A DNA stretch of 64,000 bases from Lampris incognitus (taxonomy: Eukaryota > Chordata > Actinopteri > Lampriformes > Lampridae): contig NC_079211.1 in NCBI RefSeq assembly GCF_029633865.1, positions 149,305,901-149,369,900 of the forward strand, in the 5' to 3' direction. Of this stretch, positions 8,061-44,220 are shown one piece after another; the stretch's first letter is position 1; every line of letters begins with the position of its first letter. A program made the position numbers and the translations under genes. The notes beneath the pieces are model-generated. The model had not been told where the DNA came from. It did not search any database and saw only the letters and a program-made list of their open reading frames with translations.

Positions 8061-11000
8061 TCATACCTAGGGACAATTTAGTACGGCTGATTCACCTGAC
8101 CTACATGTCTTTGGACTGTGGGAGGAAACCGGAGCCCCCGGAGGAAACCCACACTGACACGGGGAGAACATGCAAACAAGAGGACGACCCGGGATGACCC
8201 CCAAGGATGGACTACCCTGGGGCTCGAACCCAGGACCTTCTTGCTATGAGGCGACCGCGCTAACCACTGTGCCACCATTTAAAAATAAAGTGTAAATTTA
8301 AGTCTTGTATTCGACCGGTGTTGAAAAATCAGTGGGTGGGAGGAAACCGGAGCACCTGGAGGAAAACCAAACACAGACACGGGGAGAACATGCAAACTTC
8401 ACACAGAGGAGGACCCGGGACGACCCCCAAGGTTGGACTACCCCGGGGCTTGAACCCAGGACCTTCTGAGCAGAAAACATGTTGAGTGATTGGGCTGGTG
8501 ATAATTTTGACAAATATGAGACCTCAACACACAGCTTCTTCAAAGTGATAAAATCTATGCTTAGTCTTCTGTCAGCGGTAAAACACGTATTTCGACAACC
8601 TCCCCCTCCAATTTACCTACACTACCGTTCAAAAGTTTGGGATCACATTGAAATGTCCATATTTTTGAAGGAAAAGCACTGTACTTTTCAATGAAGATAA
8701 CTTTAAACTAGTCTTAACTTTAAAGAAATACACTCTATACATTGCTAATGTGGTAAATGACTATTCTAGCTGCAAATGTCTGGTTTTTGGTGCAATATCT
8801 ACATAGGTGTATAGAGGCCCATTTCAAGCAACTATCACTCCAGTGTTCTAATGGTACAATGTGTTTGCTCATTGGCTCAGAAGGCTAATTGATGATTAGA
8901 AAACCCTTGTGCAATCATGTTCACACATCTGAAAACAGTTTAGCTCGTTACAGAAGCTACAAAACTGACCTTCCTTTGAGCAGATTGAGTTTCTGGAGCA
9001 TCACATTTGTGGGGTCAATTAAACGCTCAAAATGGCCAGAAAAAGAGAACTTTCATCTGAAACTCGACAGTCTATTCTTGTTCTTAGAAATGAAGGCTAT
9101 TCCATGCGAGAAATTGCTAAGAAATTGAAGATTTCCTACACCGGTGTGTACTACTCCCTTCAGAGGACAGCACAAACAGGCTCTAACCAGAGTAGAAAAA
9201 GAAGTGGGAGGCCGCGTTGCACAACTGAGCAAGAAGATAAGTACATTAGAGTCTCTAGTTTGAGAAACAGACGCCTCACAGGTCCCCAACTGGCATCTTC
9301 ATTAAATAGTACCCGCAAAACACCAGTGTCAACATCTACAGTGAAGAGGCGGCTGCGGGATTCTGGGCTTCAGGGCAGAGTGGCAAAGAAAAAGCCATAT
9401 CTGAGACTGACCAATAAAAGAAAAAGATTAAGATGGGCAAAAGAACACAGACATTGGACAGAGGAAGACTGGAAAAAAGTGTTGTGGACGGATGAATCCA
9501 AGTTTGAGGTGTTTGGATCACAAAGAAGAACGTTTGTGAGACGCAGAACAAATGAAAAGATGCTGGAAGAATGCCTGACGCCATCTGTTAAGCATGGTGG
9601 AGGTAATGTGATGGTCTGGGGTTGCTTTGGTGCTGGTAAGGTGGGAGATTTGTACAGGGTACAAGGGATTCCGAATAAGGAAGGCTATCACTCCATTTTG
9701 CAACGCCATGCCATACCCCGTGGACAGCGCTTGATTGGAGCCAATTTCATCCTACAACAGGACAATGACCCTAAACACACCTCCAAATTGTGCAAGAACT
9801 ATTTAGAGCAGAAGCAGGCAGCTGGTATTCTATCGGTAATGGAGTGGCCAGCGCAGTCACCAGATCTGAACCCCATTGAGCTGTTGTGGGAGCAGCTTGA
9901 CCGTATGGTACGCAAGAAGTGCCCATCCAACCAATCCAACTTGTGGGAGCTGCTTCTGGAAGCGTGGGGTGCAATTTCTCCAGATTACCTCAACAAATTA
10001 ACAGCTAGAATGCCAAAGGTCTGCAATGCTGTAATTGCTGCAAATGGAGGATTCTTTGACGAAAGCAAAGTTTGATGTAAAAAAAATCTTATTTCAAATA
10101 CAAATCATAATTTCTAACCTTGTCAATGTCTTGACTCTATTTTCTATTCATTTCACAACATATGGTGGTGAATAAGTGTGACTTTTCATGGAAAACACAA
10201 AATTGTTTGGGTGATCCCAAACTTTTGAACGGTAGTGTACATCGTATGGGGGGCATCAAACACGGCGAGACCCATGAGATATTCTTGTATAAGATGGTTT
10301 CAATGTGCTTTGAATGTCTTGTATGTCTTCGTTTTTACCAACAACAACTTAGTCTTGTATAGCGCCTTTCAAGGAACCAAAGGACGCTTTACACTAGATT
10401 AAAAAATTTTTTTTAAAAAAAATTAAAACAAAGATCATATGAGTACCGAACACAGGCCTTAGTAAGAAGGTAGGTTTTCAGCAGTCTTTTAAAATTGTCC
10501 AAAGAAGCAGTGTTGTGGCTCTCCGCTGGAAGAGAGCTCCAGAGGGTGGGGGGCTGCCACACTAAAGGCTCTATCCCCACAAGTCTGCAGGCTGGTGTGG
10601 GGAATGGAAAGCAGGCCCATGTCCAGATTCCGGGATGGAATATAGGGGTTGAGGAGGTCTGATAGGTAATGGGGGGGTATGGGCATGGAAGGATTTATAG
10701 GTGAGGAGGAGATTTTATAGGAAATGCGGGATTTGACCAGGAGCCAGTGAAGGTGGACAAGGGAGGGAGTGATGTGTTGCCAGGGCTTGGTGCGGGTGAG
10801 CACCCTGGCAGCTGAATTCTGCACATACTGAAGCCTGTCTAGGGCTTTGCTAGGTACGCCAGACAGGACTCCATTGCAATAATCCAGATGGGAGGTGATG
10901 AAGGCATGGATGAGGGTCTCTGCCACGGAGTCTGAGAGTAATGGCTGGAATCTGGAGATGTTTCTGAGGTGAAAGAAAGCAGATTTGGTGACAGATTTGA

Positions 11001-14000
11001 TGTGTGACTGGAATGAGAGGGGGGAGTCCAGAATGACACCAAGGTTGCAGACTTCTGGGGATGGGCAGATGGAGCAGCCATCCATGCTGAGAAGGTCTCC
11101 AACCTTCCGGAGCAGCGCCTTGGAACCCACAACCATGAACTCAGTCTTATTGGTATTTAGCTCAAGTAGTTTTGATGACATCCAGGTTTTTATTTGGTGG
11201 AGGCAGTTAAAAAGGGATTAGGGGGGGGCTGAGAGGTTGTTGTTTGCATTGTATTATCACAGTGTATTCATTAAGTGTTTAATCTGTAAATCAGTTATCG
11301 TATTGTCTACCATGCCCACACAGTACCTACTGCATGCCTGCCTATCTAGACGAAGGAACCCTCCTCTGATGGTTTCTTCCATTTTCTTACTCGTTTTTCT
11401 TACTCATTTTTAAGTAGTTATTTTTAAAAAGTTTTTCTTTATCTGAATCGCAGGTCTCAGGATGGGGGGGGGGTGCTGTCTGTTGCCATTCACTGTATCT
11501 ACCTCATTCTCATGATGTGAATGGAAAGCCCTCTGACACTATAACTGTGATGTAGGGCATCCGGGTGGTGTGGCGGTCTATTCCGTTGCCTACCAACACG
11601 GGTATCGGCGGTTCGAATCCCCGTGTTACCTCCGGCTTGGTTGGGTGTCCCTACAGACACAATTGGCCGTGTCTGCAGGTGGGAAGCCGGATGTCGTGGG
11701 TAATCGGCAGAGGGGGTGGAGCAGCGACCAGGCTGGCTCGGAGGAGTGGGGTAATTGGCCAAGTACAAATTGGGGGGGGGGGAACAAAAACAAAACTGCA
11801 ATTTAGGGCTAAATACAAATAAACTTGACCTGATTGTTAAAGCAGGTTTGTGAGCTCTGTTTGAATAAACTGCTCCAGAAATGTTTCTTCTTGGTATCAT
11901 ATGCTCATTTAATCACTTAGAAAGAGCAGGCAGACAGCTTAGGTGCTATTTAGACAAAAGTAAGGGGACTTCGGTAATGACTGCTTTATCACAAAGGGCT
12001 TTATTTTACTGAGTAATTCTTAGGAATAGTTTAACTTGTGAAGGTTATTCATCAGCTCTTTTCAGTTTCAAAAGAACATTTATGGAAATGTCTTACTTTG
12101 TCAAAGTTGAACATCTGTGCGCTCTCTCGTGCCCAAACCAAGCAGTCAGCGATGTCTTGGACCATGGCTAAAACATTCCCCTGGGGAGAAAATCAGATCA
12201 AATGTCAGGCCATGTGCCAAAATTAAAATGTGACGCCATTACACTTATTCCATCACAATCCGCATCTTTATGTATCTGACACAACAATACAGCCCCTATG
12301 TAACTCAAATCTAAGAGGTAGAAACACAGCTCTATACACAGGTGTTGTAAGTCCACACCTATGTACTGTCTCTCTGAACAATCATAAGACTTGTCACACA
12401 AATCACTTTGAGACACTTACCTTTGGATATGTGGAATAGTCCGGGCAAATGACTGTTGCACTCAGCTCTTCGGCCATCTGCCTGGCCAGTAGACAGTATG
12501 TGGACCTCTCTCCTGAACTCCACGCACCACCGTAGATGAAAACCACCAGCGGTACCGGCCCATCTCCACACCTGCCCACTGTGGGGGGGAAGTATAAGTC
12601 CAGCTTGTTTCCGCGACGGCCAAAGGCGATCCCCTTTGAAGCGTATGGACAATTTTGAGTTTTACATAGTATGATTTTCAAATGCTTAAAGCAGGGCACT
12701 GGGCCTTGCTAACTTTTGTGGGGTAGAATGAAAACTAGGACATGTTGGTATATTTTCAGATAGTTATTTTCAGATGGAAAGTGGTTTGATGCTAGGACTG
12801 TCCCAAATAAAATTTGGATGTCTGTTCACTCCCACAGGTGGGTGGCACGATAACCTGAACAAACACCTAATGGAAGGATAGCATGATAGTCTGAAGTTGG
12901 GGAAATCACCTCCCATATTCAAGACTTGTGTGGCCATATCAGTCATAGTGCCTCTGAGCAAGACACTTAACTATACCTATTCCTGGGGCATCCGGGTAGC
13001 ATGGCAGTCTATTCTGTTGCCTACCAACATGGGGATCGCCGGATCGAATCCCCATGTTACCTCTGGCTTGGTCAGGCGTCCTGTAGACACAATTGGCTGT
13101 GTCTGTGGGTGGGAAGCCGGATGTGGGTATGTGCCCTGGTCGCTGCAGTAGCGCCTCCTCTGGTCAGTCAGGGCGCCTGCTCAGGGGGGAGGGGGAACTG
13201 GGGGGAATAGCGTGATCCTCCCACATGCTACGTCCCCCTGGTGAAACTCCTCACTGTCAGGTGAAAAGAAGCGGCTGGTGACGCCACGTGCATCGGAGGA
13301 AGCATGTGGTAGTCTGCAGCCCTCGCGGGATCGGCAGAAGGGGTGGAGCAGCGACTGGGATGGCTCAGAAGAGTGGGGTATTGGCCAGATACAATTGGGA
13401 AGAAAAATGGGGAACAAATTAAAAAAAAGAGAAGGAAAGAAAAAAACTACCTATTCCTGTGGTTGGCAGGAGTTAATTGACCCTACATCCCCACCAGAGG
13501 GTAAAAAGAAATTTCTATTTGGATTACTAAAATATACCTGTTATATCAACTTCTATTTCTGACATGCACATATAGACAGACAGACTGGCAGACGGGCAGA
13601 CAGATACATAGAAAGAGAGAGAGGGTCTATATGGGAACAGGCAAGCGTTCCGTCTTAATTTCTGTCTTACACAATAACATCATTAGGAACAACTTACCTT
13701 TTCATAATGCTCGCGGTTTTTATCATTGTTGTACCATGACCTCCACTGAAAGTAAAGTTTCCCATACTGCAGGTATTTGAGAGTTTCCAGCACAGCTCTA
13801 GTCAAACAGTATATTCGCCTGAAGGAGGCCGACAGATTCGAGTTATCAAATAACATCCTTTTAGCCATCTTGAAAAGAAACATGCATGTTTATGTATTTG
13901 CCGTTATTTCCTCTGTCCCTCTCCTTTTCTGAACCTGGGCAATGAATGCATTTGCTCAAAGTATTTCATTGTGTATGCTTGCTTTCGGTGGATCCTCCCC

Positions 14001-15688: not shown

Positions 15689-16439
15689 CAGTGTTTCTCA
15701 ACCGGGGGTCCGCGGACCCCTAGTGGTCCGTGGTGTAATTGCAAGGGGTCCGTGAAAATAAAATATCTTTAAGAAAAAGATCCTATGACATTTATAGAAA
15801 TAGGATTATTTTACTCAAATGTGACTGAGACCTTTATCTACCTAAACTATAAAGGCTAACAGGACTTTTTTCTCTAATTACATCTGTTTCACAAGTGTAA
15901 TTTATTGTATTTTAATAAGAGATCTCGCTGTTTTGTTCCACTTCTGTTTTGTTCCATATATCTGAAAGTTACTGAATACATATTCTGTTTTGTTACATAT
16001 ATCTGAAAGTTACTGAATACATATTCTGTTTTGTTACATATATCTGAAACTTACTGAATACATATTCTGTGTTGTTACATATATCTGAAAGTTATTGAAT
16101 ACATATTCTGTTTTGTTACATATATCTGAAAGTTACTGAATACATATTCTGTGTTGTTACATATATCTGAAAGTTACTGAATACATATTCTGTTTTGTTA
16201 CATATATCTGAAAGTTACTGCATAAGAATTCTGTTTTGTTACATATATCTAAGTTACAACTGAAAGCTCTTATTTTTGCCCCAAAGAGTGAATAAATGCT
16301 ATAATGCAATTTAAAATGCAGTTTGTACTGTTTCTATCAAATTGCAACCCCCCCTCCCCCAAGATCAGGTGGAGGGGTCCTCAGGGTAGATCAAAAATAC
16401 GCAGGGGGTCCAGGACCCCAAAAAGGTTGAGAACCACTG
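15689..16439. mobile_element. hAT-type MITE, copy 1, with exact 8-bp target duplication
   Basis: It begins CAGTGTTTCTCAACC and ends GGTTGAGAACCACTG, imperfect inverted ends, with GCTTAGTA duplicated exactly at 15681-15688 and 16440-16447. Inside is an array of about seven 41-bp units around TTCTGTTTTGTTACATATAT (about 15945-16250). A second copy lies in reverse orientation at 22042-22770. Confidence 0.92.
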
Positions 16440-16447
16440 GCTTAGTA

Positions 16448-17892
16448 CACATAGAGATCTAGATAGGCAGTGACAACGCCGCCTTTCTGCCAAGCAGGCG
16501 GAAACCCAAACGAGGGCGCGTTGCCGTCGCCATGCTGACGTGTGACAGAAAGCCGAACTAACTGTCGCCTCGCTTTTGAATATCAATTTCGACAAAAGCT
16601 GCTGAAAAATCTGGGCAAGTTGCTGAATCACGACCCCACTATAATGTTAATCTGGTGACACCTTGAATAGTAAAAAAAACAAAAACAAGGAGGAGGGGTA
16701 AACAGGCATAAAAACTGCCTTTCCAAGATCTTACCCTCTTCCTAATTTTGTCCCTGTCGCCATTAGAACCAAATACTTGTACTAATTGATCAGAGGTCAG
16801 AATGTAAAGTAAAGTTGGTGCATCTTTGTCCTATACTAGACTTTATCACATTAGTATAGCTGTAAAATGATAACGAGGCAAGAGACGAACACCGTACGTT
16901 TTTCAACTCCTTTCTTTTTTATCTCACTTCTTCATCACCCTCAGCACCGTACTACACTCAGCAACAATCATTAGGCTACTGCGCCCTCTGGTGGCGTGGT
17001 GGTATTGCAATGCATGAACAATGAATGAGCCGACTACACAACAATCTTCAGCTGGGAGGTAGCGCCATTTTGGCAGGAAGAAAAATGGCCTTGCCAAAAT
17101 CTTATCCTCCCTTTCTTTTTATTTCCATTACTCGAATACTCAATTAAACGTTTTGAGCGTACAAGAGAGATCATGGTGCCCGCAGATTAAAGTCTCAGGT
17201 AGATGGATGTCGCAATCATGTTGTGCGCCCTCGCAACAAAACCACGTTCTCTTCTTTTGATCATCAGACGCTGTTTTATCATGAAGACATCACGCCTGAT
17301 ACCGGCTCCGTCCAAATGGACCGACTCCTGCTAAGAACCACGTCAACTGCAGTCACCACCCGAGGGGACGCCTGCGCTTCTTCCTCCCTCTGTTTACTGG
17401 CGGATCGCAAACGACTTCAAGGTGCATAGCGCCACCTACTGTACAAGAGTCTGTAACGTCATGTCACCTTATTAAATCCTACCCGTCAGCCTTGGGTCAC
17501 TCAAGAAAGTAAACACGGTGCCTTGCTGGTGATGTTAATCCCCTCTCTCTCTGTCCCCAGTGTCCCCATCAGATTCCACTTCCGCCCCGCCTCTCGGACT
17601 TCATCCTGTGACCTTTCTCTCCCCACTTGTTACAATGTCCTGTTACATGTTCAGCGTTTTCTTTAACGCCACAGTTCTCACACGGACCACTGCCCCCCAT
17701 TTTCCCCCATTATGAACCAGCTGCCATTTAATCCTGTGTGATCCGGTCTTACTCTTGTTACGACGGTCTCCTCCCTTCTGCTCCTTTCTTTATGATTCTT
17801 TGTTGTGACATATTTTTGTATTTTGTAATACCCCCTTCCTTTTTAGTCTTCCTCCCACCTTTTCTGCCATATCTCCATTCCTTTCCTCTTAA
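16448..17892. other. No gene seen; part may be LINE 3' UTR
   Basis: No supported exon. Two loosely similar stretches near 16700 and 17085 (both with CC(A)AGATCTTA/CCAAAATCTTA) suggest an old duplicated repeat. The last few hundred bases may be the 3' untranslated part of the minus-strand LINE that follows. Confidence 0.4.
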
Positions 17893-19500
17893 TCACTGCT
17901 TTTTCCTTCTCCTTTTTCCAAGTGGGACTGACGCTGTTATTTCCTTTTGCGAAGCCCTTTTTGCTGGTTTGTCTGCACACTCGTTCCCTTCCAGTCCCTC
18001 ATGTGCTGCTACCCAGCAGAACTGTACGTCTACACCACCTCCGCGTAGTCTTCGTAAATTATGGTGAATTTCAATGATTAAAGCTTCTCGGACAGTTTTT
18101 GCTGACTGTATACTTTCCAAGACTGCTATTGAGTCTGTGCATATCACCACCCTATCAAGTCTGACCTCTTCAACCCACTGTAAGCCAATAATGACTGCCA
18201 CTATTTCTGCTGTATGTACTGATAACTGGTCAGGTATTAATAATGAATCAATAATGACTGCCACTATTTCTGCTGTATGTACTGATAATTGGTCAGATAT
18301 TAATAATGAATCAATAATGACTGCCACTATTTCTGCTGTATGTACTGATAACTGGTCAGGTATTAATAATGAATCAATAATGACTGCCACTATTTCTGCT
18401 GTATGTACTGATAACTGGTCAGATATTAATAATGAATCAATAATGACTGCCACTATTTCGGCTGTATGTACTGATAACTGGTCAGATATTAATAATGAAT
18501 CAATAATGACTGCCACTATTTCGGCTGTATGTACTGATAACTGGTCAGATATTAATAATAAATCAATAATGACCGCCACTATTTCTGCTGTATGTGCTGA
18601 TAACTGGTCAGGTATTAATAATGAATCAATAATGACTGCCACTATTTCGGTTGTATGTACTGATAACTGGTCAGGTATTAATAATGAATCAATAATGACT
18701 GCCACTATTTCTGCTGTATGTACTGATAACTGATCAGGTATTAATAATGAATCAATAATGACTGCCACTATTTCTGCTGTATGTACTGATAACTGGTCAG
18801 GTATTAATAATGAATCAATAATGACTGCCACTATTTCTGCTGTATGTACTGATAACTGGTCAGGTATTAATAATGAATCAATAATGACTGCCACTATTTC
18901 TGCTGTATGTACTGATAACTGGTCAGGTATTAATAATGAATCAATAATGACTGCCACTATTTCGGCTGTATGTACTGATAACTGGTCAGATATTAATAAT
19001 GAATCAATAATGACCGCCACTATTTCTGCTGTATGTACTGATAACTGGTCAGGTATTAATAATGAATCAATAATGACTGCCACTATTTCTGCTGTATGTA
19101 CTGATAACTGGTCAGGTATTAATAATGAATCAATAATGACTGCCACTATTTCGGCTGTATGTACTGATAACTGGTCAGGTATTAATAATGAATCAATAAT
19201 GACTGCCACTATTTCTGCTGTATGTACTGATAACTGGTCAGGTATTAATAATGAATCAATAATGACTGCCACTATTTCTGCTGTATGTACTGATAACTGG
19301 TCAGGTATTAATAATGAATCAATAATGACTGCCACTATTTCTGCTGTATGTACTGATAACTGGTCAGATATTAATAATGAATCAATAATGACTGCCACTA
19401 TTTCTGCTGTATGTACTGATAACTGGTCAGATATTAATAATGAATCAATAATGACTGCCACTATTTCGGCTGACAGTGAAATCACAAATGGTCTACCTGA
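17893..19500 (-). mobile_element. LINE fragment with RNase H domain, internally expanded
   Basis: The minus strand ends with a LINE-type RNase H: AEIVAVIIGLQWVEEVRLDR (catalytic Glu in the AE box), VVICTDSIAVLESIQ (catalytic Asp), and VQFCWVAAHEGLEGNECAD (the family's WVPSH-GxxGNExAD box, here with A and E changes). Upstream, where the rest of the domain and the RT should be, there is instead the 63-bp tandem array. The frame stays open for 566 codons, but most of this is the repeat. LINEs of the I/Nimbus style carry such an RNase H; the exact clade is not settled. Non-functional. Confidence 0.75.
18187..19470. repeat. 63-bp minisatellite, about 20 units
   Basis: The unit holds AATAATGACTGCCACTATTT and CTGATAACTGGTCAGGTATT. 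It equals 21 codons, so several frames stay open on both strands; on the minus strand the unit reads ISDQLSVHTAEIVAVIIDSLL. Copies differ mainly at one G/A site (TCAGG or TCAGA) and one T/G site (TTTCTGC or TTTCGGC), so it is young or homogenised. Confidence 0.97.
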
Positions 19501-19599
19501 GTGGGATACTCGCTTTCTCCAGCATTTGCGTGCGCCCTCTAGCGCTGTTAGGTGCAAACAGCAACTAAAACGAGTGGGCGAGGTATGGCTCACAGAGTA

Positions 19600-20283
19600 G
19601 AGAGCCTACGATCTCTGTTCTGCGGTATGGCTGAGACAGAGGCAACCATTAATCTTTGGGTTTTGTTCTTTTGTTGTTGGGCTTTTTTTTCTAGGTTCTG
19701 GAAGGTGCTATGTCCAAATTCTCTCAAATTCCACGAATCAATAAGGCCACTTGTGAGGTCATATGATGCCAGGGCTTTTTAGTAATAGTTTTATCATAAA
19801 TATAGAACAGATTATAATAGAATATATTTTATTTCGAAAATGTAACAAATAATAAGTAAGAAAATGTAACAAGAAAAACAAATAAAATGAACAGCAAACA
19901 TGAACAGCAAATTCTCAATAAACAAAAATAAATAAATAAATACTAAATGTCCAAAAGGAGCAGGAAGAAGTATAGACTTATTTGTTCCTATCCCCCCTTT
20001 TCATAGCTTAAATGATAAATTTAATGTTCATCATATATACACATAAATGATTACATTAATGTTTATCATGTATAACTACAGTCTTTACCTCAGTGTTAAT
20101 GAAATATAACTTAATTACCTTAATGTATATCCTATTGACACACACATAATCATCGTGCAGTGCCCATCCAGCATGTCCCCACACTCAGAGGAAAAAAACT
20201 ACATCGTCAACACATAGAAACAAGGTTGCTGAGTTCTACATCTGAACCATTCCACAAATAAACCCCACAAATTGAAACGCATA
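19600..20283. other. AT-rich stretch, no gene seen
   Basis: A-rich and T-rich with no supported open frame or recognised repeat. Confidence 0.5.
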
Positions 20284-21034
20284 GTGTAACATACACGAAT
20301 AAGTAGACACGTTTAGTCGACTGGTTAACGTTGTCGCCCGCGATGCAAGAAATACGGGTTCGCGTCCCGGCTGTGGCGGTTCCCGCGGCTGCCCCCCCCC
20401 CCCGAGTTTGCTGCATTGGTGTCAGAATGTCTTTGGTTGCACAGATGGGGCAGAGAGTAACTTGGGTTGAAGCTCCCTCTCTTGAGATCGTGTCCAGCTT
20501 GCTTCTGGTGTTTCCCCCTGGTGGCACACTCTCCGATCGTGCCCAACTTGCTTCTGATGGCTGCCGCCGGTGGCTCCCTCTCCACGGATCATGTCCAGCT
20601 TGCTTCTGGTGGCTTCCCCATGGCTTGAAGGGCTGGCTCTCTTCCGTTGCATGGTCGGGGCAGGACGCGGCAGGAGCTCTGCGTTGGACTTGTTCTGAAA
20701 GAGAAGACATTTTCCGTTTCCTCTGGACTCGGCCCCTCGGACACTACCCAGCGAGTCTACCGCACTCAGGGGTGGGCAGCCAGCCCTTCAAGCCATGGGG
20801 AAGCCACCAGAAGCAAGCTGGACATGATCCGTGGAGAGGGAGCCACCAGCGGCAGCCATCAGAAGCAAGTTGGGCACGATCGGAGAGTGTGCCACCAGGG
20901 GGAAACACCAGAAGCAATCTGGACATGATCCGTGGAGAGGGAGCGAATTCGGGGGGCAGCCGCGGGAACCACCACAGCCGGGACGCGAACCCGTATCTCT
21001 TGCACTGCGGGCGACAACGTTAACCAGTCGACTG
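20284..21034. repeat. Large inverted repeat with tRNA-like ends
   Basis: Left arm 20315-20639 and right arm 20778-21034 are inverted copies; the left arm has about 65 extra bases (about 20405-20470). The outer ends carry GTCGACTGGTTAACGTTGTC followed by GGGTTCGCGTCCCGGCTGTG, which resembles a tRNA B-box half. Inside each arm the phrase TCCAGCTTGCTTCTGGTG recurs two or three times. The spacer is about 138 bp. No protein is coded. Confidence 0.85.
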
Positions 21035-21270
21035 AAGGGTCCGACATGGCTAACGGGTTGGGCCCTTTAGTCGACCCCCGGCTGTGACGGTCCGGTCGGG
21101 GACGCCCTATCCTGAAGGAGGGGGTAGTGTAACGTACACCAATAAGTAGACACGTTAGCCCTTGGCTAACAGGTCGGCCCCTTTGGTCGACTGGTTAACG
21201 TTGTCGCCCGTAGTGCGGGAAACCCGGGTTCGCGTCCCGGCTGTGGCGGTTCCCGGGCTGCCCCCCCTTA
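21035..21270 (+). repeat. Partial copy of the same tRNA-like end
   Basis: Bases from about 21126 repeat the start of the previous element (GTGTAAC, then AATAAGTAGACACGTT) and the GGTTAACGTTGTCGCCCG and GGTTCGCGTCCCGGCTGTGG segments. It stops at a C run near 21267. Confidence 0.7.
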
Positions 21271-22041
21271 TTCACTACAATGTGCTCTTCAAGTTATAAC
21301 CCCCCTCTCTTCCTGAGAACATTTTTTGTATGTTGCCAGGAAGAACATTACTTCTTCTTTTGTACATTATTTGTGCAGTCTTATATTCTACCAGCTCCAA
21401 GAACTAACACACCGTGTCAGTATGTTGGTGTGGCGATGAGATCCTACATTGTTTACTATCCCCGTGGCTCTTTTAGTAGTATGCATAATGAGTACATGAT
21501 GCAAAAATTGTTAAACGTTCTTGGTAGACCTTTGCCAGAAAACCCCTTTACAAAAGGCCCCCGTGGACCCGAGGAGGCAGAAAAGCACCCTTTCACAGAT
21601 TTCCACTGAACAGCCTTCAGCGAGGAGAACCAGAGACGCAGTAGGATTGTCCCAGAACCTGGACACGCCCCTTATTTTAGCCATATTTTTAATTCATAAG
21701 GGTAAATTTAGTAAGACTCCGCCCATCTTCATTTTCTACTATAATGAAACTCAACTCTATATTAAGTCCCTGAAATAATGAAACCAAAATGTGTCAAAGA
21801 TCTCTATGGATTACTAGAAAATGATCGGGCCAACGCAATATATTCAAAAGTAACAATCGTTTAGTCAACCTTTATTTACAATTTACTTATTTCATTAACA
21901 TTTTACATTTTATTCTGCTTAGCTGATTTATCGATGGCTATTTCATGTTTTGTTCTGCTGGATTTGTTCGATGCCTTTTTTTGTATGGTTTGTGTCCATT
22001 TTTTTACATCTCTTGTGGTGTGGGCTCGTTGTTTTCTAGAG
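21271..22041. other. No gene seen
   Basis: Open stretches are short and lack splice context or family motifs. Confidence 0.45.
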
Positions 22042-22770
22042 CAGTGGTTCTCCACCTTTTTGGGGTCCTGGACCCCCTGCGTATTTTTGATCTACCCTGA
22101 GGACCCCTCCACCTGATCTTGGGGGAGGGGGGTTGCAATTTGATAGAAACAGTAGAAACTGCATTTTAAATTGCATTATAGCATTTATTCACTCTTTGGG
22201 GCAAAAATAAGAGCTTTCAGTTGTAACTTAGATATAGTTAACAAAACAGAACTCTTATGCAGTAACTTTCAGATATATGTAACAACACAGAATATGTATT
22301 CAGTAACTTTCAGATATATGTAACAAAACAGAATTCTTGTGCAGTAACTTTCAGATATATGTAACAAAACAGAATTCTTATGCAGTAACTTTCAGATATA
22401 TCTAACAAAACAGGATATGTATTCAGTAACTTTCAGATAAATGTAACAAAACAGAATATGTATTCAGTAACTTTCAGATCTATGTAACAACAGAATTTTT
22501 ATGCAGTAACTTTTAACAATGCAAACGGGAGCGAGATCTCTTATTAAAATACAATAAATTACACTTGTGAAACAGATGTAATTAGAGAAAAAAGTCCTGT
22601 TAGCCTTTATAGTTTAGGTAGATAAAGGTCTCAGTCACATTTGAGTAAAATAATCCTATTTCTATAAATGTCATAGGATATTTTTTTTAAAGATATTTTA
22701 TTTTCACGGACCCCTTGCAATTACACCACGGACCACTAGGGGTCCGCGGACCCCCGGTTGAGAAACACTG
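22042..22770. mobile_element. hAT-type MITE, copy 2, reversed
   Basis: Same family as 15689-16439 in the opposite orientation, with the same 41-bp inner array (about 22250-22515). Flanks TTCTAGAG and GTCTAGCG match at six of eight bases, so the duplication has decayed. Confidence 0.88.
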
Positions 22771-22974
22771 GTCTAGCGGATGAAGTTTTCAATTGTAACG
22801 TTTGCCTTATTGTAAATGTATCGCTCGAATTAAAAAAAAACAGAAAAACGAAATAAAAGAAAAATGAAAAGAAAAATGAAACCCCCCCCCCAACGTCTCT
22901 TAACGTGCTTTGCCCCAACATTTGTTTTTCCTCTATTGACCAACTTTCAAATATACAGACGCATTACAGACACG

Positions 22975-23560
22975 TGCTCAACGAGCGGCGGGGTTCTCTG
23001 CGTAACTTCCGGCGCAACTTCCGGCGTTCCCTCCTTTCTCCGAGCGTCCGCCGACTGTGTGAGCCGCGTGTTTACACACTCCCAGGTCAGTTTCCAGCCC
23101 CGTGGCCCTTCGCCGGCCTCGTTATTCGGGCGGCGCGGTTTCGCCGATACGGAGCGCGGCCTCGGCGACGCCCGGCCGAGTGCGCCGGAGGGCAGCGAGC
23201 GTGTCGCGGCGGCCGTTTGGAAAGTAAGCCGGAAGGCGCCGAGGCCTCCTGCCGGGCGTTAGCCGCGGCGCCCACCGCCTAGCGGCGCGCTAGTAAGACG
23301 TGGACGCCGGATCTGCCCCCTCTCCCGTCCGCCGCAAGGCGAGAGGGGCCCCGGCTTCTCCACCCGCCCCTCCGCCCTCTTTAAATCCTTTAAAATGCGG
23401 CGCTGCCACCTCACGGCACAAGGCGACGTTAAGCTAGCCGCCGGGACTAAGTTACCCCGCCCGCCCGCCGAGCCCGGCCACAGACACGGGGCGAGGCCGC
23501 CGCCACCGCCGCCGTTTAGATGGCTATCGTCGCTAGCCAGCACCGGGCACGCTTCACCCG
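22975..23560 (+). promoter_or_regulatory. btf3: CpG-rich promoter and probable 5' exon of btf3
   Basis: This is the densest CpG block near the gene. A donor CCCAG|GTCAGT at 23085/23086 could close a non-coding first exon. The coding part starts 8.3 kb downstream directly after an acceptor, which requires an upstream exon. Linking this island to btf3 is inference from strand, order and the absence of any other plus-strand gene between them. Confidence 0.55.
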
Positions 23561-24142
23561 GACACACGTCACCTTTATTCTCTTTTAACTTTACCACATG
23601 CTACTATGACGCACAAACACCTTCCATTCCCGGGGGGGGGGGGATAGCGGTACTCAAGTACTGTACTTAATAGCCTAGTAACGTTACTTTACCTCAGCGT
23701 TTACATTTTGGGGATATCCTACTTTTCTCTCTCTCCCCTCCCTCTCTTCCTCTCTCTCTCTCCCCCTCTCTTTTCAGACAAACTTCACCTTTATTCTTTT
23801 TTATCTTTACAACATGTTACTGTGATGCACAAACACGTTTCATTCCCAGGGGAGGAAAATAGCTGTACTCAAGTACTGTACTTAATAGCCCACTAACGTT
23901 ACTTTACTTAAGCGTTTACATTTTGGGGATATCCTACTTTTTCCTTCCTCTCTCTCTCTCCCCCTCTCTTTTCAGACAAACTTCACCTTTATTCTTTTTT
24001 ATCTTTACAACATGTTACTGTGATGCACAAACACGTTTCATTCCCAGGGGAGGAAAATAGCTGTACTCAAGTACTGTACTTAATAGCCCACTAACGTTAC
24101 TTTACTTAAGCGTTTACATTTTGGGGATATCCTACTTTTTCC

Positions 24143-26640: not shown

Positions 26641-27274
26641 GGGGTTCGAGGTGCACACAATAACGGAGCGAGAGCGCAAAACAAATCGTAATATGTGGCG
26701 TTGAGACATTAAACACTTCAAGTTGTACAAATAGAAATCCTAAAAAACCCCAAAACAAAAAAAACCTACACACATTTCAAGGTACGTGGTACCTTTTCTG
26801 TACATGATAATAAAGTGAAACGAACAGTTTTGATCTGGTCCGACAGCCCCTTGGCTGCATGTTAGTGGCGTGTAATAAACAGGAAGTACTGCGGGTAAAT
26901 AGTTAAAGTAACCACAAACATATTATTCAGTTAAGGGAGATTTTCTGTCCCCAGGGTAGATTTTCAAGCAAAATTAGAAAAACAAAACAACAACAACAAA
27001 ACAAGTATTGTATTTGTTAGTTAGGTTGTGTTAGCTGTGAAAAAAAAAGATTTGTGTCTCAGTGATGACATTTTAATACTTTCTCAGTATGTTGAAAATT
27101 CAAATGTGTCAGAATTGCACTGTTTTGGGCTTGTCCCCTCCTACCCAGACTTTTTAACTTCCCCTCTATAATAAAGTAATAAAAGTGGTTAAATTCATTA
27201 AAGCTTTACTTTGTATTTTCTCATAATAATTTAAAAATACATATTTCAAAATTCATCTGGGTTATATATATATA
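26641..27274. other. Intron sequence, no feature
   Basis: AT-rich, no supported exon; ends in a short TA repeat used as a Tc1 target. Confidence 0.45.
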
Positions 27275-28468
27275 CACTACCGTTCAAAAGTTTGGGATCA
27301 CCCAAACAATTTTGTGTTTTCCATGAAAAGTCACACTTATTCACCACCATATGTTGTGAAATGAATAGAAAATAGAGTCAAGACATTGACAAGGTTAGAA
27401 ATAATGATTTGTATTTGAAATAAGATTTTTTTTACATCAAACTTTGCTTTCGTCAAAGAATCCTCCATTTGCAGCAATTACAGCATTGCAGACCTTTGGC
27501 ATTCTAGCTGTTAATTTGTTGAGGTAATCTGGAGAAATTGCACCCCACGCTTCCAGAAGCAGCTCCCACAAGTTGGATTGGTTGGATGGGCACTTCTTTG
27601 AGCAGATTGAGTTTCTGGAGCATCACATTTGTGGGGTCAATTAAACGCTCAAAATGGCCAGAAAAAGAGAACTTTCATCTGAAACTCGACAGTCTATTCT
27701 TGTTCTTAGAAATGAAGGCTATTCCATGCGAGAAATTGCTAAGAAATTGAAGATTTCCTACACCGGTGTGTACTACTCCCTTCAGAGGACAGCACAAACA
27801 GGCTCTAACCAGAGTAGAAAAAGAAGTGGGAGGCCGCGTTGCACAACTGAGCAAGAAGATAAGTACATTAGAGTCTCTAGTTTGAGAAACAGACGCCTCA
27901 CAGGTCCCCAACTGGCATCTTCATTAAATAGTACCTGTTAGAGCCTGTTTGTGCTGTCCTCTGAAGGGAGTAGTACACACCGGTGTAGGAAATCTTCAAT
28001 TTCTTAGCAATTTCTCGCATGGAATAGCCTTCATTTCTAAGAACAAGAATAGACTGTCGAGTTTCAGATGAAAGTTCTCTTTTTCTGGCCATTTTGAGCG
28101 TTTAATTGACCCCACAAATGTGATGCTCCAGAAACTCAATCTGCTCAAAGAAGTGCCCATCCAACCAATCCAACTTGTGGGAGCTGCTTCTGGAAGCGTG
28201 GGGTGCAATTTCTCCAGATTACCTCAACAAATTAACAGCTAGAATGCCAAAGGTCTGCAATGCTGTAATTGCTGCAAATGGAGGATTCTTTGACGAAAGC
28301 AAAGTTTGATGTAAAAAAAATCTTATTTCAAATACAAATCATTATTTCTAACCTTGTCAATGTCTTGACTCTATTTTCTATTCATTTCACAACATATGGT
28401 GGTGAATAAGTGTGACTTTTCATGGAAAACACGAAATTGTTTGGGTGATCCCAAACTTTTGAACGGTA

Positions 28469-28471
<3 letters not shown>
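27275..28471. mobile_element. Palindromic Tc1 derivative (535-bp arms)
   Basis: Both ends are the same Tc1 end (3' side of the family at 8630-10237), flanked by TA. From each end inward come about 320 bp of the 3' end, then a deletion junction (GGGCACTTCTTTGAGCAG), then the start of the transposase. Left arm 27275-27809 and right arm 27937-28471 are both exactly 535 bp. The 127-bp spacer (27810-27936) is also transposase sequence. It cannot make a transposase. Confidence 0.95.
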
Positions 28472-28503
<32 letters not shown>

Positions 28504-28505
<2 letters not shown>

Positions 28506-30139
28506 GTGGTGTGAAAAAGTGTTTGCCCCCTTCCGGATTTCTTATTTTTTTGCATGTTTGTCACACTTAAATGTTTCAGATCATCAAACAAATTTAAATA
28601 TTAGACAAAGATAACACAAGTAAACACAAAATGCAGTTTTTAAATGAAGGTTTTTATTATTAAGGGAAAAAAAATACAAAGCTACATGGCCCTGTGTGAA
28701 AAAGTGATTGCCCCCTAAACCTAATAACTGGTTGGGCCACCCTTCGCAGCAACAACTGCAATCAAGCGTTTGCGATAACTGGCAATGAGTCTTTTACAGC
28801 GCTGTGGGGGAATTTTGGCCCACTCATCTTTGCAGAATTGTTGTAATTCAGCCACATTGGAGGGTTTTCGAGCATGAACCGCCTTTTTAAGGTCATGCCA
28901 CAGCATCTCAATCGGATTCAGGTCAGGACTTTTGACTAGGCTACTCCAAAGTCTTCATTTTGTTTTTCTTAAACCATTCAGAGGTGGACTTGCTGGTGTG
29001 TTTTGGATCATTGTCCTGCTGCAGAACCCAAGTGCGCTTCAGCTTGAGGTCACGAACAGATGGCCGGACATTCTCCTTCAGGATTTTTTGGTAGACAGCA
29101 GAAATCATGGTTCCGTTTACCACAGCAAGTCTTCCAGGTCCTGAAGCAGCAAAACAGCCCCAGACCATCACACCACCACCACCATATTTTACTGTTGGTA
29201 TGATGTTCCTTTTCTGAAATGCGGTGTTATTTTTACGCCAGATGTAATGGGACACACACCTTCCAAAAAGTTCAACTTTTGTCTCGTCAGTCCACAGAGT
29301 ATTTCCCCAAAAGTCTTGGGGATCATCAAGATGTTTTCTGGCAAAACTGAGATGAGCCTTTATGTTCTTTTTGCTCAGCAGTGGTTTCCATCTTGGAACT
29401 CTGCCATGCGGGCCATTTTTGTCCGGTCTCTTTCTTATGGTGGAGTCATGAACACTGACCTTAACTAAGGCAAGTGAGGCCTGCAGGTCTTTGGATGTTG
29501 TTGTGGGGTCGTTTGTGACCTCTTGGATGAGTCGTCTCTGCGCTCTTGGGGTAATTTTGGTCGGCCGGCCACTTCTGGGAAGGTTCACCACTGTTCCATG
29601 TTTTCGCCATTTGTGGATAATGGCTCTCACTGTGGTTCGCTGGAGTCCCAAAGCTTTAGAAATGGCTTTATAACCTTTTCCAGACTGATAGATTTCAATT
29701 ACTTTGTTTCTCATTTGTTCCTAATTTCTTTGGATTGCAGCATGATATCTAGCTTTTGAGGATCTTTTGGTCTACTTCACTTCGTCAGGCAGGTCCTATT
29801 TAAGTGATTTCTTGATTGAGAAGAGGTGTGGCAGTAATCAGGCCTGGGTGTGGCTAGAGAAATTCAACTCAGCTTTCCAAAGATGTGATAAACCACACTT
29901 AATTTATGTTTTAACGGGGGGGGGGGGGGGGAATCACTTTTTCACACAGGGCCATGTAGGTTTGGATTTTTCTTTTCCCTTGATAATAAAATCCTTCATT
30001 AAAAAACTGCATTTTGTGTTTACTTGTGTTATCTTTGTCTAATATTTAAATTAGTTTGATGATCTGAAACATTTAAGTGTGACAAACATGCAAAAAAATA
30101 AGAAATCAGGAAGGGGGCAAACACTTTTTCACACTACTG
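28504..30139 (-). mobile_element. Second Tc1-like transposon, full length, inactivated
   Basis: Inverted ends CAGTGGTGTGAAAAAGTGTT (left; the right end differs slightly) lie between TA dinucleotides in a (TA)n tract. Length 1636 bp. It is a different Tc1 family from the 8630 element. A run of G near 29916-29931 interrupts the 5' UTR side. Confidence 0.93.
28721..29714 (-). pseudogene. Tc1-like transposase, frameshifted
   Basis: The minus strand codes MRNKVIEIYQSGKGYKAISK (helix-turn-helix), SGRPTKITPRAQRR, then WTDETKVELFG and QQDNDPKHTSKS of the DDE domain up to about 28941. The next part, with the third catalytic residue and MLWHDLKKAVHARKPSN, continues in another frame down to 28721; an extra A in the AAAA near 28931 fits the shift. 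The early RKRPDKNG is also unusual for the family. One frameshift is enough to remove the last catalytic residue. Confidence 0.9.
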
Positions 30140-31378: not shown

Positions 31379-33307
<1,929 letters not shown>

Positions 33308-37985: not shown

Positions 37986-40900
37986 GGTGTTTCAACAACA
38001 TTATTATTCATGTTGGCACCAATAATGCTAAGATGAAGCAATCAGAGATCACAAAAGCCAGCATGTTCGAGTTTGCCAGAAAGATGTGTTGGCATCGATT
38101 AATTGTCTCTGGTCCCTTACCAGTGAGGGGTAATGATTAGATGTACAGTAGGCTCACCTCAATGAACCGCTGGCTGGCTCGTTACTGTAATGAGCAGGGA
38201 TTTGGCTTTGTTGATATCTGGCCTTCTTTCTGGGGCCGCCCGTACCTTCTGAAAGCGGACGGCATTCACCCCATTGGGGATGGCGCCACTCTTTTGTCTG
38301 GCAGTATAGATAGCTGTTTACATTTAGTTTGACACTAGGGACTTATCATTCAGCAGGTTGCAGGTGAATAGAGAGCCTGCTAGGTTTAAATCTAGTGCGG
38401 ATGTGGAGTCAAGTAGTTTAATGAATATGATTAGTCAGGGAATTTCTCAGAGTAGATTATCAGCCTGATAGCTTGGTCTATAACATTGAGACTGTCTCCC
38501 TACCCTGCTGTATTGCTCCCAAGCTCTCCTCTCCTAAATGTGTGAATCATAATAATCTAGTAATTATTCCTACCACTGGTAGTGGTGAGATGTGCGACAA
38601 AGTACCTACTAATCTACAAAACCAAACAGCTAATGTTACCAAGAATGTGACCACATATCGTCCAAAGCGTTGGTGGCCAAAACTCTCAACAAGGTGTCTA
38701 ATTCCAATTAATCTTTCACCTATTACTGGCTCTAAAGCTCTGCCTACTACTGATCACTTCCACAAGACGCTTAAATTTGGTTTCATAAATATCAGATCAC
38801 TGTCTACCAAAGCCTTACTAATAAATGATCTGATTCTTGAACATAGTTTTGATATGATTGGGTTATGTGAAACATGGCTGAAACCAAATGTTTTCCTTCC
38901 CTTAAATGAAGCTTCCCCACCTGACTATACTTATGCCCATGTAGCTCGGGCAAATAAACAAGGCGGGGGTGTTGCCTTAATATATAAATCTATTTTCAAT
39001 CTGACTTCTAGACTCGAATCTAAATTCCAGTTTTTTGAGGCTCTTGTTCTTGGTCCATCTCCCTCAGCCATGAATAGACTCGGCTCAGTCCAAATTGTGA
39101 TACTCTACCGGCCTCCTGGCTCTTACTCGTTATTTCTAAAGAGAATTTGTCTCAGGCCTTGTTACTCACTCTGATGAGATTATAATTCTTGGTGATTTCA
39201 ATATTCATCTGAATAAGGCTGCTGATCCTCTAAGTAAAGCCTTCCTGGCACTAGTTGATACTTTTGGGTTCACTCAGTTTGTTCAAGAGTCGACTCATTG
39301 CAGTGGTAACACCCTTGATTTGGTTTTATCTAAAGGGGATAGCTGTTTCTGATCTGAATGTCTTACCAACCACATCTGCTGTGTCTGATCATTTTCTCAT
39401 CAAATTTGAAGCATTATTGACCTGTCCAGTTAATGTCAGCACAGATGTAACTGCCACTCGCCACATCGGTCCCTCCACTGTAACTGCATTTGGCCAGCAG
39501 CTGCTTGAAGTCTTGGCTCCTTTCACTGTGGTAACTGACTTTGTTGAACATTTCACTAGTGACTTAAATGTGGCCCTCTCTAGTCTCCTCGATTCAGTTG
39601 CACCTCTCACTACCAGAGCTAGGCGACTAAAGAGGCCTACACCCTGGTTTAATGATGAGACACATGCTCTTAAGCGGACCTGCAGGAGACTGGAGCGTAA
39701 ATGGCAAAAATCAAAATTGGAAGTTTTTTAACTATCGTGGCACGAGCGTTTATTGAAATACAGGCATGCTCTATCTGCTGCAAAAACAGCGTATCTCTCT
39801 CACTTAATAAATATTAATAAACATAACCCCAGATTTCTCTTTGACACTGTATCTAAACTTACTAAAAAGCAGTCGTCTATTAGCTGCTCACCGTTCACAG
39901 CCCATGAATTTCTAGATTTTTTCTGCAATAAGGTTGATGAGATCTTAAACAAAATCAGTTCTTCAACTCCATCTACTCCTGCAGATCCTGTCTTACTAAA
40001 TTCATATCTACACAATGGGTCACTGACAGTCCCAGTTATTACAGCTTTTGAGACTATCTCTCTTGATACTTTGACTGAGTTCGTGTCAGCTTCTAAATCA
40101 ACTGCTTGCATACTTGATCCCTTACCAGCAAAACTTTTTAAAGACCTCTGGCCTTTTCTTGGACCTACAATGCTAGACATCGTTAATTTATCTCTTACTA
40201 CTGGCATTGTTCCCAGCAGTTCTAAGACAGCTGTGGTTAAACCTCTACTTAAAAAACCGCACCTCGATCCAGGGTTTCTTAATAACTATCAGCCAGTCTC
40301 GAATCTTCCCTTCTTCTCTAAAGTACTAGAGAGAGTTGTGTATCAACAACTTTCAACCCATATACAAGAAAACCATCTATATGAACCTTTTCAGTAGGCT
40401 TTCAGGCCCTGTCACTCCACTGAAACTGCTCTGACCAGAGTGGTAAATGATCTTCTACTGGCGATCGACTCTGATTCCACTTCTGTGCTTCTGCTACTGG
40501 ACCTCAGTTCAGCCTTTGACACCATTGATCACTGTATACTTTTAGATAGATTAAATTGTAATTTTGGTGTCTCTGGTTTAGCTCTCTCTTGGTTTAAGTC
40601 CTATTTATCTGGAAGAACACATTGTGTCTGCTATAGTAATATTACATCAAAATTTTCTGACATTAAATATGGTTTGCCTCAGGGCTCACCATATTTCTAC
40701 TTTTCCCTCTTTACATTACACCTCTTGGCCAAATTATACGCAGTTATGGAATAAATTTCCATTGCTATTTTGATGATACTCAGCTGTATGTGCCTATAAG
40801 GGCTGATGATCATACTCAAATGACTAATTTAGAGGGCTGCTTGGCTACTGTGAAAAACTGGATGTTACTTAATTTCCTGCTTTTAAATTCGGATAAAACT

Positions 40901-41510
40901 GAGATGCTGGTCATTGGCCCTGCCAGACACAGACACCAATTTGATCAAGTAACGATAACAATTGACAACTCTGTGGTTTCACAAAGTGTGGCAGTCAAAA
41001 AACTTGGTGTTACGTTTGATCCCAACCTTTCCTTTCATAAGCACATTAAAGAAATCACCAAGATGGCCCTTTTTCACTTATGTAACATAGCTAAAATTTG
41101 GTCTTTTCTCTCCATGCTGACGCAGAGACTCTAATACATACATTTGTTTCATCCAGACTTGATTACTGTAATGTTCTGTTGTCACGTCTGCCACATGCTA
41201 GTACTAAACGTCTTCAGATGGTTCAGAATGCTGCAGCTAGAATCCTAACTAAAACTAGGAAACTTGACCATATTACACCAATTCTTGCCTCCCTTCATTG
41301 GCTTCCTATCCATGTTAGATCAGAATACAAGGTGCTTCTGCTGACTGTATAAAATCCTAAACGAGCTGGTCCCATCTTACCTGTCTGATCTCCTTAAACT
41401 GTACGTTCCATCTCAAGCTCTCAAAATACAGGGCTCCTGTGTGTACCCAAAGTTAAGAAGAAGTCAGCTGGTGGCAGGGCCTTTTCCTATTGGACCCCGT
41501 TCTTGTGGAG
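37985..41510 (+). mobile_element. L2-type LINE, 5'- and 3'-truncated
   Basis: It starts in an ORF1 esterase of SGNH type (HVGTNNAKMK near 38015 and DGIHPIGDGA near 38260, the Asn and Asp/His blocks). ORF2 follows: endonuclease (FGFINIRSLSTKALLINDL, GLCETWL; about 38770-39350), then RT (RPVSNLPF-type box, LLLLDLSSAFDTIDHCILLD at about 40490, YGLPQGSP at about 40665) and the C-terminal LASLHWLPIHVRSEYK. Frame shifts near 39170, 39340 and 40740 and a stop at 40396 make it inactive. At 41508 it meets a second L2 copy tail to tail. Confidence 0.85.
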
Positions 41511-43198
41511 GATAACAGAATTATAATGAAATTATAAGATATATGAAGAATATGATGAGTAGGATGCCAAGCAGTGTGAAGATGCCACCAGAACAGCCCA
41601 GGACCTGAGCTATGTGACCAGCATTACCATGTAAATAAATAAATACAATTTCCGCACATCTTAGGATATAACATTAAAGTAGGATAACAAAATTACATGG
41701 ATTTATAAGATATATAAAAAGAAAATGTAATGAGGGGGCTGCCAAGCAGTGTCCAGGTAGCGAATACCATCATTATGGAGACCTGGGAGGAGGACAGACT
41801 GCACATACACACAAGGGAGACTCACATCACACCATTCACACAGAGAAAAAGAGAAAGGAGAAGACATCATTCAGAGAGAGAGAAAAGATGTGAGAGAAGA
41901 GACGAGTTTGCAATAGTCAATAATCTATACACTATAATCTCGTCGGCAGAACAGTGCTTGGTAAATTCATTGAGACAGAAACCGACCCGCCATGCAGTAC
42001 AGGTTGTGAAGCACTCAACTTAAAGGCAACTAATTGTAAGCTAAGCCAAAAAGATGAGTTTTAAGTTTGGATTTAAAGGACTCAACACACTCTGATTGTC
42101 TGATGGCATCAGGCAGGTTATTCCTCAAGAACGGGGCCCGACAGGAAAAGGCCCTGTCACCAGCTGACATCTTTTTAACTTTTGAGTACACAGAGCAGTC
42201 CTGTATTTTGAGAGTGAAGAGCTCGAGATGGAACGTACAGTTTAGGATTTTATAAGTCAGCAGAAGCACCTTGAAGTCTGATCTAACATGGATAGGAAGC
42301 CAATGAAGGGAGGCAAGAATTGGTGTAATATGGTCAAATTTCCTAGTTTTAGTTAGGATTCCAGCTGCAGCATTCTGAACCATCTGAAGACGTTTAGTAC
42401 TAGCATGTGGCAGACCTGAAAACACAACATTACATCAATCAAGTCTGGATGAAACAAATGCATGTATTAGAGTCTTTGCATCAGCCATGGAGAGAAAAGA
42501 TCGAATTTTAGCCACGTTACATAAGTGAAAAAAAGACAGTCTTAGTGATTTCTTTAGTGTGCTTATCAAAGCTTATCAAAGGAAAGGCTGGGATCAAATG
42601 TAACACCAAGAATTTGGCTGCCACACTTTGTGAAATCACAAAGTTGTCGATTGTTATCGTTACTTGATCAAATTGGTATCTGTGTCTAGCAGGGCCAATG
42701 ACCAGCATCTCAGTTTTATCTGAATTTAAAAGCAGAAAGTTTAGTGACATCCAGTTTTTCACAGTAGCCACGCAGGCCTCTAAATTAGTCATTTAAGTAT
42801 GATCATCAGCCCTTATAGGCACATACAGCTGAGTATCATCAGCATAGCAATAGAAATGTATTCCATAACTGCGTATAATTTGGCCAAGCGTTGAAATATA
42901 AAGAGAGAAAATTAGAGAGCCAAGAACTGAACCCTGAGGTACACCATATTTAACGTCAGAGAATTTTGATATATTATTATAGCAGACACAATGTGTTCTT
43001 CCAGATAAGTAGGACTTAAGTCAAGAGACATAAAAATTTCAATTTAATCCGTCTAATAGTATTTTGTGATCAACAGTGTCAAAGGCTGAACTGAGGACCA
43101 GTAGCAGAAGCACAGAAGTGGAATCAGAGTCGATAGCTAGTAAAAGATCATTCACCACTCTGGTCAGAGCAGTTTCAGTGGAGTGACAGAGCCTGAAA
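41511..43198 (-). mobile_element. L2-type LINE, second copy, 5'-truncated
   Basis: The minus strand reads from within the RT (near 43198, the [11 protein letters not shown] region) to the C-terminal part ending HLFGLAYN at 42030, followed by what appears to be its 3' UTR down to about 41511. In this UTR two similar stretches (about 41515 and 41683, both with AAGATATAT and GCCAAGCAGTGT) form a loose duplication. Several frame breaks are present. Confidence 0.8.
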
Positions 43199-44220
43199 GC
43201 TGTGTTTTTCTTTTATTATCGTTTTCTCTAGCTTTATATACTATTAACCCTTTTTTACTGTGCATCTGTGTTTTGATTTTACCCATCGTACTTTGTCTCA
43301 CATATTGTTCTGTACTATGCTGTGGTTGTTGTTTGTAGTGCACTTCGTAACTTGTCTGGAGACTATAGATCATAAATGAAATATTATTATTATCATGTAG
43401 TATATAAACCTACTTTCATGCTTTGGAAAGATTTTGTTTTTTGTAGACACCAGAAAACAGTGACATCACAGTGCAATAGTAATTATATTTGCTGAAAAGC
43501 AATGAGTACTAATGCACAGGAAATTATTCATCATTCCATTTAGGATATTGAGGAACAGAAACTAAAACATTCCCAAGAACAATGTGTGTCATCAAGATGC
43601 AAAGCCCAAAATATGTTTCAAGTTTTATGTTGTAATGTGGGTAAATGAAGATGTTTAAATAATATACAAGCCAAACCAATCAAAGGAGAAAGAAAACAGA
43701 AATGGAAAATTTTCTTGCAGCTGTATACAGAATATGGACCTCTAAGAAAATGTTAGGCTTTTTAGAGAATAAATTCACAAATGCGAAATATGAGAAAGGT
43801 AAATTTGCTATTGAGCTGTATAGTTTTATAGAGGCTGACATTTAGGGGTGGATTGCCCCATACATGGCCTGGGTGAGTAATGGTCAACGGGAAAATCCTT
43901 TTGACAAGATAGTATCAATCATCCATCCACATCTTACCAACTTCTGCTTCTGAAAACAAGAGTAACTGACTTGTGACTAACAGGAGATTTGAAGAGGGAC
44001 TGTCTCGTGGGTCAACATCACATTTGTTTTGCATTTCAAATGAAGGGTTGGGGACAAATAAACACCCACCTCTGAATCTAACATATCTCTCACCATCAAC
44101 AAACACACATACACACACATTGTTGCATACCGATACTAGTTTGGCCTGATCAGTCTCCTCCCACGCGCCTACAGGACCACGCGGTGAGGTTGGGTTTATG
44201 TCCTCTGCAGACGCCAACAA
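43199..44220. other. Upstream region of il12b, no gene seen
   Basis: AT-rich. An NF-kappaB-like but imperfect word GGGAAAATCC lies near 43890. Nothing else was recognised. Confidence 0.4.

Follow-up and report, generated by a model that had tools for sequence, protein, structure and literature searches.

Is the palindrome at positions 27275–28471 of the window (the whole stretch of 64,000 nucleotides of Lampris incognitus DNA that was analysed) a rearranged Tc1 copy made on the spot, or is it one copy of a mobile element? The original prediction, made from the window alone, described a Tc1 copy that had already been deleted internally and was then duplicated in inverted form, lying in the presumed first intron of btf3, where its hairpin could act as a source of small RNAs against intact members of the same family. 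The structure of the palindrome, its copies elsewhere in the genome and its relation to full-length elements point to a different origin.

Structure of the palindrome and nature of its junctions

The window contains 50 inverted pairs that reach 60 nt; the palindrome heads the 25 that were listed, the longest of the 50, and its length is far beyond chance. Alignment of the arms (27275–27809 and 27937–28471) bore out the predicted symmetry: each arm is exactly 535 nt long, the spacer is 127 nt, and the inverted match, which extends to 547 nt when the flanking (TA)n is included, contains a single mismatch (T at 27313, G at 28433). Apart from its short centre, the whole element is a single long inverted repeat, as in foldback or palindromic elements. 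The coordinates of its parts and of the neighbouring features are given in Table 1.

Table 1. Positions in the window of the palindrome, its parts, the ordinary Tc1 element and btf3
Feature	Position	Strand	Remark
Left-right Tc1 element, 1618 bp, TA at both ends, open 347-aa transposase frame, D154/D244/E283	8620..10237	+	38 residues between second D and E
CpG-rich stretch, possible btf3 promoter/exon 1	22801..23800		
Left target-site TA, inside (TA)n	27273..27274		
Palindromic non-autonomous Tc1 element, 1197 bp	27275..28471	+	Equals the majority consensus of 39 exact-length copies (38 fetched and the window copy)
Left outer part: inverted Tc1 3′ (right) end, with terminal repeat and last transposase codons	27275..27598	-	Matches 10237 down to 9914
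Junction A: 3-bp microhomology (CTT) between inverted right end and transposase 5′ leader	27596..27598		
Transposase leader and N-terminal coding part	27596..27935	+	Matches 8974–9313, 340/340
95-aa open frame, N-terminal helix-turn-helix region	27654..27941	+	Stop just past junction B
Loop between the arms, 127 nt	27810..27936	+	
Junction B (inversion/fold-back point): 9313 joined to 9187 in reverse, one extra T	27935..27937		
Right arm	27937..28471	-	Mirrors 27275–27809 with one mismatch
Right target-site TA, inside (TA)n	28472..28473		
btf3 coding exons	31379..33307	+	Exon ends read by eye; Pfam NAC

As had been predicted, an intact Tc1 relative with an open transposase frame is present in the same window, at 8620–10237. 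Its transposase matches PF01498 and PF13358 above the cut-offs, which identifies it as an enzyme of the Tc1 type with helix-turn-helix and DDE domains, and its ends are identical over 27 bp with TA on both sides, in agreement with the terminal inverted repeats and target sites of Tc1/mariner elements. According to the available part of the report on Intruder (DD38E), members of that family have 38 residues between the second D and E, a length of 1.5–1.7 kb and a transposase of 341–379 aa; some carry long terminal repeats of 100–272 bp, and the family has been recently active in ray-finned fish, where among vertebrates it is mostly found (PMC7731502). The element at 8620–10237 has the same 38-residue spacing, its likeness to Intruder being one of spacing and size alone. 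The words 'nonautonomous' and 'MITE' are absent from the main text of the Intruder paper, as far as that text was available (PMC7731502).

Read against this left-right element, the palindrome runs from 10237 to 9914, crosses junction A with a 3-bp overlap, continues from 8974 to 9313 and, after one extra T, returns from 9187 to 8974, passes junction A again and ends with 9914 to 10237. The 3′ end of the element at 8620–10237 points outward on either side and the loop holds transposase sequence, in agreement with the original prediction, which was also right that the two arms share one junction, but not that this junction is an internal deletion. A plain internal deletion is ruled out by the orientation of the transposase start, which points inward and is fused to the 3′ end in reverse. 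Junction A is therefore an end swap, in which the left end has been replaced by an inverted right end via a 3-bp microhomology. Self-integration of an excised element was also considered as the origin of junction A and was set aside, since no TA marks the junction.

Further repeats were seen in the window. A second, different Tc1 element on the reverse strand (28504–30139; longest frame 259 aa, inverted ends of about 200 bp) lies next to the palindrome, with a (TA)n run between them, and is flanked by (TA)n left and right. A compact inverted repeat occupies 20472–20944, with arms of 167 nt that are 96% complementary and 139 nt apart. Parts of the region at 40398–43200, which from its look we take to be LINE-like, are present as inverted copies (90–95%) within 3 kb.

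Transposition of the palindrome as a unit into many TA sites

The 27 nt of junction A, with at most two mismatches, were found at 11,443 places (5,728 + 5,715) in the 1.48-Gb genome of the species itself, and the reversed control gave 0. Because the junction recurs at so many places, and in full-length elements as well, the palindrome is no local event, and the earlier view of a deleted Tc1 copy duplicated in inverted form where it stood had to be abandoned.

The DNA around 100 listed junction A places, all exact matches between 0.35 and 16.38 Mb of contig C1, gave 68 loci, 13 of which were second halves of pairs, leaving 55 distinct loci. Both A junctions and a junction B within two mismatches of that in the window were present in 47 of the 55, and 46 of these 47 were delimited at both ends, the right end being absent from L055. 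Three loci contained one A junction and junction B and were shortened or truncated (L025, L046 and L053), two contained a single A junction only (the deletion derivative L017 and the fragment L051), and three contained one A junction together with internal transposase sequence. Scaling the 94 of 102 junction sites in the sampled loci to 11,443 gives an estimate of about 5,300 palindrome copies in the genome, a number that is extrapolated from 55 loci in 16 Mb of one contig and in which the exact 27-nt match biases both count and divergence towards young copies; the ceiling, with all junction A sites being paired, is 5,721.

TA was found on both sides of 48 of the 50 delimited elements (49 fetched, three of them shortened, and the window copy; the undelimited L033, L046, L051, L055, L058 and L059 are excluded), and the target resembles AYATATRT. 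Two of the palindromes (L034 and L045) are inserted in a 41-bp repeat, the uninterrupted form of which is the array at 15942–16257 in the window. The search for further copies with the same junction, which had been put forward as the means of recognizing movement as a unit, thus gave a clear answer: the palindrome has transposed as a unit into many TA sites.

More than half of the delimited elements (29 of 50, the window copy included) sit across TATATATA. Being self-complementary, this sequence could promote strand switching, so that the palindrome might have arisen repeatedly and separately at its present sites, when excision of Tc1 from (TA)n was followed by aberrant repair. However, junctions A and B are common to 47 loci, and for many copies the flanks are of another kind, with TA on each side, which requires one origin followed by transposition; independent origins are already contradicted and we consider them exceedingly improbable. 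Hairpin reads classically yield perfect palindromes as artefacts, and a fold-back read or a missing adapter could in principle have produced such a structure during assembly or library construction. Against this, the palindromic match stops at the element ends beyond the (TA)n, where the left and right flanks differ; the arms of the palindrome copies bear private mutations; and 46 fetched copies with the same internal junctions are each delimited in their own flanks, which makes an assembly artefact very unlikely. We give that explanation next to no credence.

The palindrome occurs in many near-identical copies, contains no full transposase, sits at TA sites and has the ends of an autonomous-type element, which are the features of a non-autonomous, MITE-like element. 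We therefore consider it very probable that the palindrome in the window belongs to a non-autonomous Tc1 family that is very young and amplified, with the history of end swap, snap-back and trans-mobilisation that is proposed below.

Related forms, order of origin and age

The left-right junction was found at 2,990 sites (1,494 + 1,496; control 0) in the same genome. Sixteen left-right loci were fetched, and the 15 that were delimited at both ends have lengths of 1615–1619 bp. The 347-aa frame is kept in 10 of these 15 and in the window copy; in one of them, the frame continues to 361 aa. The 15 elements and the window copy carry 2–7 substitutions relative to their own consensus, with a mean of 4.2 (0.26%, a few gaps being uncounted). 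The palindrome copies of exactly 1197 bp (n = 39, i.e., 38 fetched and the window copy, with eight copies of other lengths and L055, whose end is missing, excluded from the 47) have a mean of 2.97 differences from their consensus (0.25%), and three of them, the window copy, L049 and L057, have none. Judged by these divergences, palindromes and left-right elements are similarly young, with a slight bias to youth in both samples from the required exact match of 27 or 28 nt. Viral contigs were searched with a 22-nt form of junction A and with the transposase, and neither was found in them, as expected.

Three loci, L033, L058 and L059, represent full-length right-right (R'R) elements, bounded on either side by a right end, with junction A next to one of the two. 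Their 347-aa frames are all open and agree with the window transposase at 340–342 of 347 residues (5–7 differ), and the elements show 6–9 differences from the window left-right copy in about 1,270 bp. Because junction A is present in both arms of the palindrome, it preceded junction B, and the simplest order suggested by the sequences is from left-right to right-right to palindrome. The three R'R elements are likely to represent the precursor type of the palindrome, although recombination between a palindrome and a left-right element could also have produced them later.

We propose that the left end of a left-right element was swapped for an inverted right end by a switch at the 3-bp microhomology, as the structure suggests, probably during gap repair, which would give a full-length R'R element with its transposase frame open. 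Synthesis through the left part of such an element may then have halted at 9313, snapped back at 9187 and copied its own new strand, yielding a near-perfect palindrome with junction A in both arms in one event; no intermediate of this step was seen among the 55 sampled loci. The palindrome then moved as a unit into many TA sites, as the copies, their flanks and their TA sites show, and the window copy is one such insertion, in a (TA)n run within the probable first intron of btf3. The shared ends suggest that transposase was supplied in trans by the coexisting full-length left-right and right-right elements, and the two identical right ends and the small size may favour the mobility of the palindrome.

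Mos1 and Mboumar-9 transpose best in vitro when both ends are the same, preferred one, and for Sleeping Beauty the authors mention a comparable outcome in the part of their report that was available (PMC4505599). For the present family, we can only tentatively suggest that palindromes of the end-swapped, right-right lineage owe their excess over the ordinary elements to being a better substrate, through a pair of identical strong ends or through hairpin pairing of the ends, and that about 5,000 near-perfect 535-bp hairpins, many of them probably intronic, impose a genome-wide double-stranded-RNA load on the parent family. The left and right Tc1 ends are the same over their first 27 bp, and a search for a second copy of the 27-bp terminal motif inside either end found none above shuffled sequence, so that neither result points to a stronger right end.

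Arm 1 of the palindrome consensus is identical to the right end of the left-right consensus (324/324), and arm 2 differs at one site. At three sites, both arms of L028 share the state that is seen only in arm 2 of other copies, and L007 and L020 have mutations that are mirrored in both arms. In total, four mirrored changes were counted in 3 of the 39 copies, as compared with 0.05 expected in a simulation with uniform sites. The pattern in these three copies fits arm-to-arm gene conversion. At the single position where the consensus arms disagree, ten further copies have T on both sides; this can be explained without conversion, either as the ancestral state or by CpG decay.

Another explanation for the spread of the palindrome is that its 95-aa N-terminal transposase fragment is a selected DNA-binding repressor. 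Truncated repressor forms exist for other transposons, and the frame contains the helix-turn-helix region and is intact in 34 of the 39 copies. However, the changes found in it comprise 5 silent, 16 amino-acid and 5 stop changes, against 197, 610 and 48 opportunities, respectively, which looks like neutral decay with no sign of purifying selection in this small sample of 26 changes. In view of these neutral-looking changes, we do not propose a selected repressor, which seems improbable.

The 41-bp unit hosts Tc1 insertions of all three kinds elsewhere in the genome (L033, L034, L045 and L078). In the window, inverted arms of about 750 bp at 15689–22770, 93% identical and 5.6 kb apart, each contain a 41-bp tandem array. 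The outer ends of these arms start CAGTGTTTCTCAACCGGGGG, and we presume the arms to be hAT-like. Between them lies a 63-bp tandem array (18186–19472; about 20 copies with 97% matches), which is open in more than one frame.

Genomic context, silencing and known systems

The coding exons downstream of the palindrome are on the same strand and comprise an ATG exon at 31379, one at about 31560, a NAC-domain exon from about 32362 (PF01849) and a C-terminal exon to about 33307. We take the gene to be btf3 from BTF3 motifs together with the Pfam NAC domain. The ATG exon begins 2.9 kb downstream of the palindrome. Within the scanned 20–34 kb, the strongest CpG-rich stretch is at about 22.8–23.8 kb, with a GC content of 0.54–0.69 and an observed/expected ratio of 1.03–1.45, and a weaker GC-rich stretch is located at about 20.2–21.4 kb, among repeats. 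With the CpG-rich stretch upstream and the coding exons downstream, the palindrome is likely to lie inside intron 1 of btf3, which would be roughly 8 kb long if the CpG-rich stretch is exon 1. The presumed intronic position in the original prediction is therefore probable.

The same prediction envisaged a locally duplicated, deleted Tc1 copy in btf3 whose hairpin yields small RNAs against the Tc1 family, i.e., a Mu-killer-like locus. The computed fold of the palindrome as RNA is one full-length stem (−1036 kcal/mol), and the btf3 transcript would contain this 535-bp stem. Maize Mu killer, a MuDR derivative, is likewise inverted and internally deleted, with an inverted partial transposase gene and two same-end terminal repeats beside a transcribed gene, and silences its own family, as described in the available part of the report (PMC3440606). 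However, Mu killer is described as a locus with a genetic silencing effect, whereas here thousands of mobile copies are present, and even for Mu killer the authors, in the text available, reject an earlier read-through model (PMC3440606). The genome-wide distribution of junction A, including its presence in full-length elements, also speaks against a local duplication. Furthermore, left-right elements with open frames are as young as the palindrome, indicating that silencing has not visibly halted the Tc1 family. Since many of these equally young elements have open frames, nothing singles out the btf3 copy, and its role as a silencing locus for the Tc1 family is unsupported. The local duplication with a silencing function is thus unlikely, and we retain the reading of the palindrome as a member of an amplified, mobile family.

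Palindromic elements are known from other systems. C. elegans has the palindromic Tc6, a repeat tied to Tc1. To it we assign the palindromic transposon-related repeat that Dreyfus and Emmons (1991) reportedly described in this worm, as cited in the available part of PMC3212995; it resembles the present element in being a transposon-related palindrome with repeated genomic copies, but in the present case the left-right source and a full-length right-right form coexist, btf3 and fish-like repeats point to a vertebrate host, and the copies are about 0.25% divergent. From what could be seen of the respective reports, the foldback-like Galileo similarly has long or varied terminal inverted repeats, and its defective copies are attributed to repair and template switching, but its transposase belongs to the P superfamily (PMC4168063); a MITE of Atlantic cod also forms palindromic non-autonomous copies in a fish, but is derived from the hAT superfamily (PMC12368964). 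No description of this palindromic Tc1 family was found in the literature searched, Repbase and most subscription journals being outside its scope. Palindromic non-autonomous Tc1 elements are a known kind, and the present family is unusual in its scale, its youth and the coexistence of related forms.

Left-right elements, full-length right-right elements and right-right palindromes coexist in this genome, the first and the last being about 0.25% divergent. These coexisting forms provide a natural test of whether symmetric preferred ends move best, an idea that comes from test-tube work. The thousands of young, near-perfect hairpins provide a test of whether such structures provoke double-stranded-RNA editing, small RNAs or instability in a genome that appears to be that of a vertebrate, and the palindrome copies may capture an early stage of arm-to-arm gene conversion.
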